From positions 186,001 to 250,000 of the forward strand of contig NZ_FKIF01000007.1 in the NCBI RefSeq assembly GCF_900078705.1: a stretch of 64,000 nt of DNA. Reading direction: 5' to 3'. Below, one piece after another: positions 55,464-61,739 of this stretch; positions within the stretch are counted from its first letter, which is position 1; each line of letters starts with the position of its first letter. A program made the position numbers and the translations under genes. The notes under the pieces were generated by a model that had not been told where the DNA came from, did no database searches, and worked only from the letters and a program-made list of their open reading frames with translations. This DNA is from Bordetella ansorpii. GTDB taxonomy: Bacteria > Pseudomonadota > Gammaproteobacteria > Burkholderiales > Burkholderiaceae_B.

Positions 55464-57218
55464 TCACCCCTGCGTCACCATCGGCGCAGTGCCATAGCCT
55501 TGCAGTTGCGCGGACGGCAGATCGATGACCTCGCCCGCATTGATGCGGAACACCGCCACGGCTTCGGCCAGGCGCTGCGCCTGCTCCTGCAGCGAACCCG
55601 CCGCCGCCGCCGCCTCTTCCACCAGCGCCGCGTTCTGCTGCGTCACCTCGTCCATCTGCGACACCGCGCGGTTCACCTGGTCGATGCCCCCGGACTGCTC
55701 TTCCGACGCCGCCGAGATCTCGCCCATGATGTCCGTCACGCGCTTGACCGAACTGACGATCTCCTGCATCGTCGCCCCGGCGCGTTCGACCTGCTGCGAA
55801 CCCGTGCCCACCTTGCTGACCGAGTCCTCGATCAGCACCTTGATCTCCTTGGCCGCCTGCGCGCTGCGCTGCGCCAGCGAGCGAACCTCGCCCGCCACCA
55901 CCGCGAAGCCCTTGCCCTGCTCGCCCGCGCGCGCCGCTTCCACCGCTGCGTTCAGCGCCAGGATGTTGGTCTGGAACGCGATGCCGTCGATCACCGACAC
56001 GATCTCGGAGATCTTGCGCGAGCTCGCCGAGATGCCTTCCATCGTGTTGACCACCTCCGACACCGCCGAACCGCCGCGCTCGGCCACCTGCGACGCGCTG
56101 GCCGCCAACTGGTTGGCCTGGCGCGCGTTGTCCGCGTTCTGTTTCACCGTCGACGCCAACTGCTCCATCGAGGCCGCGGTCTCTTCCAGCGAGGCCGCCT
56201 GCTCTTCGGTGCGGCTGGACAGGTCGGTGTTGCCCGCGGATATCTCCTGCGCACCGACGTTGATCTCGTCCACGCCGCGGCGCACGGTGCTGACCGTGCG
56301 CGTCAGGCTTTCCTGCATGCGCTTGAGCGCCGCGAACAACTGGCCGATCTCGTTGTTGTTGCGCACTTCCACCCGCGCGGTCAGGTCTCCACCAGCGATG
56401 CGGTCGAAATGCTGACCGGCCTCGACCAGCGGACGCACCACCAGACGGCCGAAGACGATGCGGGCCATGATCATCAGCAACACCGCCAGCACGACGGCGG
56501 CCACCACGGCGATCAGCGCCCGCTCGAAGCTGGTCTGCGCCTGTTCCGTGGTCGCGTTCTGAGCGTCCTGGATGTAGTTGGTGAACTGGCCGATGGCCTC
56601 GATGAACGCCGCGCTGCGCGGCGTGCCGTACTCGTTGTTCACCATGTAGAACGTCGAATAGTCTTCGCTGCGCAGAGCTTCGAGCATGGTATCGACGCCG
56701 TCGTCGATATACGACCGGTAGCGGCGCACCAGGTTCATGGAGAGCTGGCGGCCCTTCTCGTCTTCCAGCATGTTCTTCTGGAAATCGGAGAAGCGGTTGC
56801 GAACGCCATTCAGCAGATCCGTGGCGTCCTTCAGGGCATCCTTGGCGGCCTGGTTCGACGAGGAAGCGGCGCCCTGGCCAGTGCCGCTGCCGCCGCCGCC
56901 CCAGCCGGCTTCCTGCAGATGGCGTGCCGCCACCATCAGGGAGACCCGGGCGCGCAGCATGTCGCTGTTGATGATCTCGACCTGCTTGCCTCGATCGGTC
57001 AACTGCGTGATCTGCAACACCGATTGGTAGTTCTGCTGCAGGAAATAGGCAGCCATCAGGCCCATGGCGGCGACGAGCACGGCGAACAGACCCATAACCC
57101 ACATCAGCATGGTTCCGACGCGTGCGTCACGCAACTTCATGGAACGCTTCTGCTTGGGTGCGCGTTTGCGCTTCTTGGCCTTGCCTTTTTGCTCGCCTGC
57201 TTCCAGATTCGTGTCCAT
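55464..57218 (-). CDS. Methyl-accepting chemotaxis protein 1
   Basis: 584 aa. A basic cytoplasmic start ([14 protein letters not shown], 13-26), membrane segments at about 36-60 and 233-256, a helical periplasmic sensor with a Gly-rich insert ([12 protein letters not shown]), a HAMP domain (about 257-310) and the signalling domain with hairpin tip [56 protein letters not shown]. It ends [22 protein letters not shown] and lacks the WESF-type tether seen in the two neighbouring receptors. Ligand unknown. Its signalling part is nearly identical in DNA to the other two (see repeats). Confidence 0.93.
55541..56351 (-). repeat. Copy 1 of the near-identical 811-bp chemoreceptor signalling module
   Basis: Colinear without gaps with 58151-58961 and 60107-60917. 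By eye only scattered single-base differences separate the copies, while the sensor domains before and the C-terminal tails after are unrelated in sequence. Confidence 0.85.
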
Positions 57219-57302
57219 AAGCCCCCCTGTTTCCAGGAATAATTCATAAAAAGAAAAGCCGCCTTCCGTGCGTCCGACCTGGTGGCCGTACGGAGAGCGC
57301 CA

Positions 57303-57319
57303 CCGGGCATTGCGCCCGG
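57303..57319 (-). terminator. Small hairpin after the lipoprotein gene
   Basis: CCGGGC and GCCCGG form a 6-bp stem with a five-base loop, 11 bp beyond the stop codon at 57330 on the minus strand and upstream of chemoreceptor 1. No T-run; weak evidence for termination. Confidence 0.35.
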
Positions 57320-57329
57320 GTATCGTGGA

Positions 57330-57772
57330 TTACTGCGTCGCCCCCGGTGGGATGACGATCCAACCGGACTCGGGTACGGTTTCCTGCGGCGCGATGGCCA
57401 CCGGCGCGATCGGCGCAGGTTCCGGCCCCAACAACTTCTGCCGCTCCCAGGGTTCCAGCAGGATATTGGTGCTATCCACCAACCTCATCAGCCGTCCGTC
57501 GGGGCCGAACTGCAGCAAGGCTTCCTTGCGGCTGTACAGTCCGTCTGGCACAAACGTGACATGAAAACGCCAGAGCGCCAGCGTGGTGCCGTCGCTCTGT
57601 GCGTAGACCTGATCGGGCGCGGCCGTCAGCGCGCGCGCGCCGCCTCGGCGATCGTCGTACGGCCCGGCGTCAGCGAGGACAGCTTGCCCGGGTCGAAGTT
57701 GTGGCCCGAGGCCAAGCATCCTCCCAGTGCCAGCATCCCGGCCATTGCCATGACTTTCAGATATCGCATCAT
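57330..57772 (-). pseudogene. BamE/OmlA-like small lipoprotein gene with a 2-base frameshift in a (GC)6 tract
   Basis: From ATG at 57772 the frame gives a signal peptide with lipobox LALGGC (C19), then [25 protein letters not shown] and a stop (57626-57628) after 48 codons. The continuation is in another frame: [21 protein letters not shown] and later [33 protein letters not shown] up to 57330. Together they make a normal small lipoprotein with the TPGRTT start of the SmpA/BamE-like fold. Removing one GC unit from the (GC)6 run at 57629-57640 restores a 146-codon frame (443 bp minus 2 = 147 codons with stop). It may be a true phase-off state, a fixed pseudogene or a sequencing error. Confidence 0.8.
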
Positions 57773-59699
57773 TTACCCCATGGTTGCCGCGCGTCGCGCG
57801 GTCAAAAGGATTCCCAGTCGTCTTGCGCAGCGCTGGCTGGCCGGCCGGCTTGGGCGCCAGTGCGGCCGGCGCCTTTTTCACCGCGGGCGCTGGCGCCGCG
57901 GCATCCTGGGCAGCCTGCTTCGCGGCTCGCCGCTCGGGCTGGCGCACGGAGGCGTCCTCGCCCGCCATGGAGATATCGGACTGCGTCAGGCGCTCGGGAC
58001 GGCGCTGCGCGGGCGCCGGCTTGATCGGATCGGCTTGCCGCGCAACGCTCTCGGCACGCTTTGGCGGTGCCGGCTTCTCGGCTGCAGGAACACGCGGCGC
58101 CTGGCGCTGCGCATCCAGCTTCGCGGCCACATCGATGACCTCGCCGGTGTTGATGCGGAACACCGCCACGGCCTCGGCCAGGCGCTGCGCCTGCTCCTGC
58201 AGCGAACCCGCCGCCGCCGCCGCCTCTTCCACCAACGCCGCGTTCTGCTGCGTCACCTCGTCCATCTGCGACACCGCGCGGTTCACCTGGTCGATGCCCC
58301 CGGACTGCTCTTCCGACGCCGCCGAAATCTCGCCCATGATGTCCGTCACGCGCCTGGACGAGCCAAGCATTTCCTGCATCGTGACGCCCGCGCGTTCGAC
58401 CTGCTGCGAACCGGTGTCCACCTTGCTGACCGAGTCCTCGATCAGCACCTTGATCTCCTTGGCCGCCTGCGCGCTGCGCTGCGCCAGCGAGCGAACCTCG
58501 CCCGCCACCACCGCGAAACCCTTGCCCTGCTCGCCCGCGCGCGCCGCTTCCACCGCCGCGTTCAGCGCCAGGATGTTGGTCTGGAACGCGATGCCGTCGA
58601 TCACCGACACGATCTCGGCAATCTTGCGCGAGCTGGCCGAGATGTCTTCCATCGTGCTGATGACTTCCGACATGGCAGCGCCGCCGCGCTCGGCCACCTG
58701 CGAGGCGCTGGCCGCCAGTTGGTTGGCCTGGCGCGCGTTGTCCGCGTTCTGTTTCACCGTCGACGCCAACTGCTCCATCGAGGCCGCGGTCTCTTCCAGC
58801 GAGGCCGCCTGCTGCTCGGTACGGCTGGACAGGTCGGTGTTGCCCGCGGATATCTCGCGCGACCCCACGTTGATCTCGTCCACGCCACGGCGCACGGTGC
58901 TGACCGTGCGCGTCAGGCTTTCCTGCATGCGCTTGAGCGCCGCGAACAACTGGCCGATCTCATTGTTGCTGCGCGCGTCCACCCGCGCGGTCAGGTCGCC
59001 CGCGGCGATGCGGTCGAAATGCGCGCCGGCTTCCTTCAGGGGGCGAAGCACGCCCCGGATCATGAACAGGAACGCGCCACCGGCAATCGCCAGCGTCATG
59101 ACGATCATGACGAGATAGACGATATCGACCAGACGGACCTGGCGGCGGAATTCAGCCAGCGTGCGTTCGCTCATTGTCTGGATGTTGGCGCCGAACTGAT
59201 CGAGCCTGCCCGACAATGCCACGCTTGCCGCGCTGACCTTGGTGTTCTTCAATTCCAGGAAACGGCTGGCGTCATTGGCGGACAATGCGGCCTGCATTTC
59301 CTGAATCGAAGCGGCCAGGCCATGGAAGGCCGCCACCAGATCATCCGCCGTCGCGCGCCCCACGTCGGACAATTTGGGAATTTCGCGGAAAACCTCGACC
59401 TTTTTAAGACCATCGGCCACCTGCGACTGCAGCATGGACATGCTTTGCGAGAATCCCGCCGAGTCCCCTGCCTGCTGCTGCGCGGCGGCGATGTCAGCCC
59501 GGATGATCGAGCGCAGCATCATCACGTAGCTGTCCTTCAGCAACGCGTTCTGGCGCACGCTCAGGCTGTCCAGCCGGTTGAGCGCGGCCTCCCCATCATT
59601 CGCATTGACCCAACCCATGCCGATGGAAGCCAGCGCCATGGCCACCATGGCCAGCAGCGCGGACAACAAACCGGTTTTGACTTTCAAGTTCGAGAGCAT
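57330..59699 (-). CDS. Methyl-accepting chemotaxis protein 2, C-terminal frame lost and fused to downstream lipoprotein sequence
   Basis: The open frame from ATG 59699 encodes 789 aa, but only about the first 600 are receptor: membrane segments at about 8-30 and 189-213, a helical sensor between them, HAMP, the shared signalling domain, then an Ala/Pro/Lys-rich linker. The natural end, AAQDDWESF and a TGA at 57802-57804, is present in the -1 frame, so one base is missing upstream. As written, the frame instead runs through about 60 unrelated residues into the last about 100 residues of the lipoprotein. ATG 59699 begins [10 protein letters not shown], the same start as receptor 3 ([10 protein letters not shown]). 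The intact gene would be about 632 aa and end at 57802. Confidence 0.8.
57629..57640. repeat. (GC)6 dinucleotide tract at the lipoprotein frameshift
   Basis: Six GC units in a row lie exactly where the reading frame of the lipoprotein breaks. Five units would keep it open. Dinucleotide tracts of this kind can slip during replication and also cause sequencing and assembly errors. Confidence 0.85.
58151..58961 (-). repeat. Copy 2 of the 811-bp chemoreceptor signalling module
   Basis: Same length and order as copies 1 and 3. It carries a few more differences than copies 1 and 3 show between themselves, for example around 58353-58382 (protein [14 protein letters not shown] in place of [14 protein letters not shown]). 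Confidence 0.85.
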
Positions 59700-59759
59700 A
59701 GGACCTCGCATGAAGGACAGTGGGCAAGGCCGGCGGACCAGCCTCAGGATGTCACCCTG

Positions 59760-61649
59760 TTAGAAAGATTCCCAATCATCGGACGCCGCGGGGGCCTTGC
59801 CGCGCGAGGGAGCCGCAGCAGGCGCCTGAGGCTTGGCAGCGGTTTCCGGGGCGGCGGGGCGGCGCGGCGGACGGCGGACGGTGGCGGCCTCGCCCGCACC
59901 CGGTTCGACCACACGGGCCGTTGCCACCAATCGCGGCGGCTGGACGGCAGGCTTGGCTTCGGCGAGCTTGGCTTCGGCAGGCTTGGCTTTGGCGGGCTGG
60001 GCTTTGGCGGGCTTGGCCGCCACGGGAGCCGGCGCGGGAACCGCCACGCGCGGCACGGCCTGCGAGGCCAATTGCTGCGCCGGCGCGTCGATGACCTCGC
60101 CCGCATTGATGCGGAACACCGCCACGGCTTCGGCCAGGCGCTGCGCCTGCTCCTGCAGCGAACCCGCCGCCGCCGCCGCCTCTTCCACCAACGCCGCGTT
60201 CTGCTGCGTCACCTCGTCCATCTGCGACACCGCGCGGTTCACCTGGTCGATGCCCCCGGACTGCTCTTCCGACGCCGCCGAAATCTCGCCCATGATGTCC
60301 GTCACGCGCTTGACCGAACTGACGATCTCCTGCATCGTCGCCCCGGCGCGTTCGACCTGCTGCGAACCCGTGCCCACCTTGCTGACCGAGTCCTCGATCA
60401 GCACCTTGATCTCCTTGGCCGCCTGCGCGCTGCGCTGCGCCAGCGAGCGAACCTCGCCCGCCACCACCGCGAAACCCTTGCCCTGCTCGCCCGCGCGCGC
60501 CGCTTCCACCGCCGCGTTCAGCGCCAGGATGTTGGTCTGGAACGCGATGCCGTCGATCACCGACACGATCTCGGAGATCTTGCGTGAGCTCGCCGAGATG
60601 CCCTCCATCGTGTTGACCACCTCCGACACCGCCGAACCGCCGCGCTCGGCCACCTGCGACGCGCTGGCCGCCAACTGGTTGGCCTGGCGCGCGTTGTCCG
60701 CGTTCTGTTTCACCGTCGACGCCAACTGCTCCATCGAGGCCGCGGTCTCTTCCAGCGAGGCCGCCTGCTGCTCGGTACGGCTGGACAGGTCGGTGTTGCC
60801 CGCGGATATCTCCTGCGCACCGACGTTGATCTCGTCCACGCCACGGCGCACGGTGCTGACCGTGCGCGTCAGGCTTTCCTGCATGCGCTTGAGCGCCGCG
60901 AACAACTGGCCGATCTCATTGTTGCTGCGCACGTCCACCCGCGCGGTCAGGTCGCCACCGGCGATGCGGTCGAAATGGGCGCCGGCCTCCTTCAACGGGT
61001 GCAGCACGTTGCGGCTGATGAAGAAGCCGCAGCCGACGCAGACCAGCAAGGACAGCACGAACAGCACGATCGTGACCAGGCGCGAACGGTCGAACTCGGC
61101 GAAGCCGGCCTGCACCATCTCATCGGTGGCAACATCGACATAGTTCAGGAACGTGTCGAGCGTTTTCTCGACCTCCTGGCTGCCGCGCAGCACGACCGGG
61201 GACAAGGCAGCAAAATCCGCGGGTGAATTGGCGCGCAGCGTGCCGATCTGCCGTTCACTGGCATCGGCGTAGCCGCGCAGCGCCGCCAACATGGGTTGCG
61301 CGAGTTCCGCCACGTCAGGCGTCATCTTGGACTTGCCCAGGTCTTCGATCTGCTTGCGCGCCTGGCCGAGGTAATCCGCGCCACGCTGCAGGGCCGCATC
61401 GGAGTCTGTCTGGCGGTTCTCTCCCATGGCAACGCGGGATTCGTTGAGATTGATGCGCGTGCGCAGCAGGTTCACGTAGCTGGCATACGCGGGAACGACC
61501 TGATCGGTGTACGCGTTGTTGACACCATCCAGCTTGTCGTTGCTGACGGTGAAGCTCAGCAGCGACAACCCATTCGAAACCGCCATGAACAGGCAGAACA
61601 AGCCCAGCACGATACCGATGCAGGTGCGGACCTTCAAATTGGATAACAT
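59760..61649 (-). CDS. Methyl-accepting chemotaxis protein 3
   Basis: 629 aa. Membrane segments at about 9-33 and 190-211, a four-helix type sensor between them ([18 protein letters not shown] is like the ligand-binding helix of Tar/Tsr-type sensors), HAMP, the shared signalling domain, an Ala/Lys/Pro linker with repeated [14 protein letters not shown] and the end SDDWESF, an xWxxF tether for CheR/CheB. ATG at 61649; an upstream in-frame extension to 61727 runs through a terminator and is not used. 60 bp before receptor 2, so the two are probably co-transcribed. Confidence 0.94.
60107..60917 (-). repeat. Copy 3 of the 811-bp chemoreceptor signalling module
   Basis: Nearly identical to copy 1 at 55541-56351, including the stretch around [16 protein letters not shown], and colinear with copy 2. 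Confidence 0.85.
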
Positions 61650-61665
61650 GACTTGCCTATCTATC

Positions 61666-61695
61666 AAAAAACGCGCTCCTCTATTGGGAGCGCGT
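61666..61695 (-). terminator. Intrinsic terminator after flgL, just before chemoreceptor 3
   Basis: ACGCGCTCC and GGAGCGCGT form a 9-bp perfect stem with a seven-base loop (61671-61695). On the minus strand TTTTTT follows directly, the best Rho-independent terminator in the window. It lies 45 bp after the flgL stop and only 16-22 bp before the ATG of chemoreceptor 3. Confidence 0.85.
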
Positions 61696-61739
61696 ATAGG
61701 GGATCTCAGCTGAAAACGGTCAGTCACGCCGGGGCAATG

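Follow-up and report, generated by a model that had tools for sequence, protein, structure and literature searches.

Two frame changes join a tethered chemoreceptor gene and a small lipoprotein gene in a Bordetella assembly: a probable local consensus error

Chemoreceptors of the Tar/Tsr type are the closest described relatives of the gene considered here. According to PMC7390727, pentapeptides at the C-terminal end of such receptors, carried on flexible tails, recruit CheR and CheB. The receptor gene at this locus, MCP2, is like them in its TarH sensor, HAMP and MCP signalling domains, and it also encodes a long tail and an aromatic-xx-aromatic end, DDWESF, as in its relatives; unlike them, it has its tether out of frame as assembled, and about 160 other residues follow. 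The gene behind it belongs to a lipoprotein family found beside chemoreceptors in Bordetella, Achromobacter and other genera of the bacterial family, and both halves of the window's copy match this family; unlike members elsewhere, the copy is split over two frames, in this genome only, with the signal peptide apart from the body. A third point of comparison is technical: according to PMC12007338, long-read assemblies, and even some made from short reads, can retain indel errors that disrupt genes. The present case resembles the gene-fragmenting errors treated in that paper in that frame breaks occur in otherwise well-conserved genes and are found by comparison with relatives; it differs from them in that there are only two breaks, close together, with no homopolymer evident at the first of them. 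A literature search at the level of title listings found nothing on point for frameshifted Bordetella chemotaxis genes or receptor-lipoprotein pairs. Here, we describe the two genes and their frame changes, compare them with related genomes, and weigh the possible causes, among which we favour, with modest confidence, a local error in the consensus sequence.

Two genes in one open frame

The window, that is, the whole 64,000-nucleotide stretch of DNA analysed, is part of contig 7 of a 6.2-Mb genome in 10 contigs; a search of plasmid records gave no match. On its minus strand MCP1, MCP2, a small lipoprotein gene and MCP3 follow one another between flagellar genes, which their translations identify as fliK to fliR on one side and flgL and flgK on the other. 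Each of the three receptors contains MCPsignal, HAMP and TarH domains. MCP1 (59760..61649, minus strand; start codon chosen by codon score) is intact and ends in DDWESF, and MCP3 (55464..57218, minus strand; open frame and Pfam domains) is intact and has no tether. Ends of the DWE[ST]F type, searched for with the single pattern of DWE, then S, T or similar, then F and a stop, are coded at only two places in the genome: in frame in MCP1 and out of frame in MCP2.

The chimeric open frame (57330..59699, minus strand) starts with an ATG at 59699, extends over 789 codons and a stop, which is that of the lipoprotein, and joins MCP2 out of frame to the lipoprotein body. An earlier note on this DNA had described one frame running through both genes to the lipoprotein stop at 57330, and our reading of the open frames agrees. 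Pfam finds MCPsignal (PF00015, E=2.8e-55), HAMP (PF00672, E=8.5e-13) and TarH (PF02203, E=9.6e-15) in this frame, all in the receptor part, and no domain in the lipoprotein part; with a signalling domain, a HAMP domain and a periplasmic sensor domain, the 789-aa frame classifies as a chemoreceptor. The natural extent of MCP2 is 57802..59699 (minus strand), with the DDWESF tether as its end, and as written its frame is lost in the tail. The tether codons and stop (GACGACTGGGAATCCTTTTGA; 57802..57822, minus strand) lie in a frame other than that of MCP2, as the note had said of the receptor leaving its natural frame ahead of DDWESF-TGA. Judged by an in-frame C-terminal xZxxZ pentapeptide, the criterion given in PMC7390727, the assembled MCP2 has no tether and the receptors of the relatives do.

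The lipoprotein gene (57330..57772, minus strand) starts with an ATG at 57772 and stays in its own frame for 48 codons, in which a signal peptide and an LGGC lipobox can be read by eye, and then reaches a stop at a (GC)6 tract (57629..57640, minus strand), where the note had likewise placed the loss of frame. The signal peptide and lipobox are thus in the natural frame and, as assembled, not in frame with the body. The arithmetic of the note also holds when checked by hand: 59699 to 57802 comprises 1898 bases, one short of a multiple of three, and 57772 to 57330 comprises 443, two over. Its picture of a receptor without an in-frame CheR/CheB tether and a lipoprotein body without an in-frame signal peptide is therefore an accurate description of the assembled sequence.

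There are two frame changes, one in each of the adjacent genes and less than about 300 bases apart, the first in the MCP2 tail upstream of the out-of-frame tether and the second at the (GC)6 tract. Counted from a motif that both receptors share, the MCP2 tail has 341 nt and the MCP1 tail 339 nt, the latter a multiple of three. Residues in the receptor frame match those of B. genomosp. 13 down to about 57925 when the translations are compared by eye, and the first change must therefore fall within about 57925-57823. This stretch (57823..57925, minus strand), delimited with codon scores, a DNA alignment and translations read by eye, has a net length that is not a multiple of three, and no homopolymer or comparable repeat tract is evident in it on inspection. 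Codon scores are weak in the tail, where one 24-codon window (start 58108) slightly favours a different frame, and the exact base of the change cannot be fixed. They are clearer further on: in 24-codon windows the lipoprotein's own frame is favoured from about 57770 to 57640 and the fused frame from about 57650 on. The break pattern is more than chance, since in the relatives the lipoprotein lies in one frame and the codon-usage scores switch frame accordingly. On the opposite strand, MCP2 and the end of MCP1 are overlapped by a 1101-aa antisense open frame (57282-60587, plus strand), most likely a by-product of GC-rich coding DNA.

The locus in related genomes

Judged by this gene, Bordetella genomosp. 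13 and B. ansorpii stand closest among the named relatives; a scan of genome contigs found no second isolate of the window's species. With the B. genomosp. 13 lipoprotein as tblastn query, the matched part lies in a single frame in 26 of 26 related genomes, several of the matches being partial (e.g. residues 17-114), so that 'one frame' holds for the matched part. These are distinct genomes, 10 of the genus and 16 of Achromobacter, and L020, L021, L032 and L035, which duplicate records among them, do not add to the count. A split into two frames is confined to the window's own sequence (L001, L002 and the window), and seven loci fetched by weak DNA matches (L013-L019) had no lipoprotein match by tblastn. 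A profile search of 121 genomes of the bacterial family found the lipoprotein in 66, and only the window's own genome has one lipoprotein in two adjacent pieces (G030 and G108 have a second, weaker match elsewhere). The halves of that copy, found in a search of the genome itself, are 90% and 77% identical to the B. genomosp. 13 protein, and no second intact copy was detected there at E<=0.001.

The receptor tether is likewise in an open frame in all 20 named loci, in 13 of them in the same frame as the signalling motif; the contigs of the other seven end before that motif. In 24 of 29 relatives' loci a tethered receptor stands directly before the lipoprotein; the remaining five have no tethered receptor by the rule used, and one of them (L121) lies near a contig end. 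A previous count had given a DDW-type tether upstream of the lipoprotein in 21 of 26 relatives' loci, with L007 and L008 lacking a tether of that pattern (the genome of L008 has DEDWQSF) and L010-L012 not parsed. In each of six regions fetched closer, chosen for long open frames or as complete contigs, the receptor stops in its own frame before the lipoprotein begins.

These comparisons bear directly on whether the 789-aa frame could encode a genuine fusion, a receptor with a C-terminal cytoplasmic extension derived from lipoprotein sequence. The frame is indeed open through 789 codons, but open out-of-frame stretches are common in this GC-rich DNA: the lipoprotein frames of relatives also extend far back into the receptor, by up to 843 codons in one genome. 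That 843-aa frame, in G043, whose region is one of the six above, was considered as a fused homologue and rejected, as it is an out-of-frame reading past a receptor ending in EEEWEEF. Fused-frame codon scores, moreover, are negative at about 57820-57700, and from about 57796 on they are exceeded by those of the lipoprotein's own frame. A single protein with the same junction was sought in related genomes and not found, given the 26 single-frame lipoproteins and the six receptors that stop first, and by this test the locus is not a conserved fusion of receptor and lipoprotein. We give a functional fusion almost no credence; the earlier note had already taken the frame for the product of two separate changes joining two genes and probably not a functional fusion, and relatives that keep the genes apart bear this out. 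The 789-aa frame is not a gene and does not warrant annotation as a new fusion protein. The case carries a warning for annotation, in which a 789-aa chemoreceptor fusion would be listed and the lipoprotein would drop from the gene list.

Decay, base composition and the origin of the frame changes

In DNA alignments the tether is identical to that of both nearest relatives, and the lipoprotein aligns closely with both on either side of the tract. Read in the natural frames over 141 codons, changes on the window's branch (n=33) comprise 24 silent and nine amino-acid-changing ones, with silent-to-changing counts of 5:5 in the 43 N-terminal lipoprotein codons and 19:4 in the 98 C-terminal codons; the branches of the two relatives have 17:4 and 9:5. 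These comparisons show no decay at the locus, and the frame changes are therefore either recent or not real.

Frame breaks elsewhere on the contig are rare. In a first survey the window's contig yielded 11 two-frame candidates and B. genomosp. 13 yielded 13, mostly wrong-frame or antisense open frames and over-long starts; base composition by codon position exposed them as such, and the genes were therefore rechosen by codon usage. The resulting survey covers 367 genes with B. genomosp. 13 orthologues in the fetched stretches (135,665 codons), and would miss a shift near a gene end, such as that of the receptor. Two of the 367 read in two frames: the lipoprotein, whose recovery serves as a positive control, and one doubtful N-terminus of low coding score at contig position about 336,600. 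In the reverse direction, none of 369 genes on the B. genomosp. 13 side is split. With no more than one case, itself ambiguous, among the 366 other genes, the assembly does not look error-rich as a whole, a possibility we reject and a point that also counts against error as the cause; because breaks are so rare elsewhere, two of them within about 300 bases are not independent background and have to be treated as a local matter.

The region is, by its composition, hard to assemble. The MCP2 tail has 73% GC, and 57601-57700 has 74%, at the 89th percentile of the contig. Among the 20 named relatives, seven (L029, L032 and L034-L038) have a contig that breaks off within the MCP2 tail, 15-212 nt short of the tether, where the DNA is 79-87% GC. 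A collapse of repeats was considered as the cause, as the three receptors match exactly over up to 201 bases. Of 12 loci, however, five gave a value for where the last repeated 40-mer begins, and these values range from 113 nt ahead of the point where the tail starts to 13 nt past it. Since repeats give out before or near that point, they alone do not explain the contig ends of the relatives, and repeat collapse was rejected.

Of the three causes that the note had offered, error, fixed mutation and phase variation, the GC-rich tail and tract, together with the relatives' contigs that end in the tail, incline us, if without great assurance, towards consensus error. An ordinary tethered receptor gene and the ordinary lipoprotein gene next to it would each have been thrown out of frame once within about 300 bases, by local consensus error in a GC-rich stretch that is difficult to assemble, first the receptor tail and then the GC-dinucleotide tract. 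In the living strain both genes would be intact and would work as in the relatives. Against this, no obvious homopolymer marks the site of the receptor change, and unbroken genes on the contig contain four other (GC)6 tracts, which shows that such tracts are not miscalled as a rule; the 5:5 changes in the first 43 lipoprotein codons would, taken alone, also allow relaxed selection.

The main competing reading takes both frame changes as real and recent, so that the lipoprotein and the CheR/CheB tether of the receptor are gone from the strain. Signalling by the receptor may then continue with reduced adaptation, and the message would read into lipoprotein sequence that never reaches the membrane. 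The scarcity of frame breaks in the rest of the assembly speaks for such a loss, and the (GC)6 tract is a plausible slippage site, being one of only six tracts of >=6 repeats in 864 kb of contig. Receptor and lipoprotein are conserved neighbours, as the 24 of 29 loci attest, so that joint loss of a functional pair would make sense, and the other tethered receptor, MCP1, is intact and could make the loss tolerable. This reading nevertheless requires that each of two neighbouring genes acquired its own indel recently while nothing else points to decay, the tether DNA being unchanged and 24 of the 33 window-specific changes silent, and the assemblies of relatives break at the same spot. A real loss is quite possible, and we rank it second, behind consensus error. 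Real changes would leave the strain with a single tethered receptor of the DWE[ST]F type in place of two, by the pattern used, and would make it a simple natural experiment on how far adaptation depends on the tether.

Dinucleotide tracts can slip, and under phase variation the length of the (GC)6 tract, perhaps along with that of a site in the tail of the receptor, would change and so switch lipoprotein and tether on and off within the population. The tract does sit at the frame break of the lipoprotein. It is short, however, and the GC stretch found in its place in the two nearest relatives is shorter still and interrupted, so that the tract is not kept there as a phase-variable gene would require; the four other (GC)6 tracts on the contig are in unbroken genes and the one tract of 8 repeats is intergenic. 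No comparable tract is visible at the receptor's change, where a second, independent switch would be needed. We regard phase variation as very unlikely, and no more credible is the specific case in which both changes are real and reversible. The population would then alternate between two states, one with a tethered receptor and its lipoprotein partner, the other with no lipoprotein and a receptor whose tether is replaced by a long foreign tail. If true, such a switch would turn off adaptation and a periplasmic partner together.

The lipoprotein family and the neighbouring receptors

A by-product of this analysis may be worth more than the case itself, namely an undescribed lipoprotein family whose genes lie directly behind a tethered chemoreceptor in the 24 loci counted above. 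The family, represented by 57330-57772 and loci L003-L012, L020-L039 and L115-L144, has no Pfam or NCBIfam name. Pfam and NCBIfam searches with three members gave no match, scanning 20 members against Pfam produced no more than two hits at chance level, each in a single member, and a sequence search of the PDB found no match to the lipoprotein up to E=1. The fold predicted for the B. genomosp. 13 protein (pLDDT 70.8, pTM 0.57), a model of moderate confidence, consists of two short helices followed by four strands and a helix, an order that may resemble that of BamE/SmpA-like domains. The lipoprotein is possibly a periplasmic or outer-membrane partner of the receptor.

Two further observations concern the receptors. 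In their signalling part, the three genes (59760-61727, 57330-59699 and 55464-57218) have exact stretches of up to 201 bases in common, which suggests gene conversion or recent duplication. MCP3 begins with a long cytoplasmic stretch rich in lysine and arginine, and its N-terminus is similar in the relatives L004, L005 and L006.
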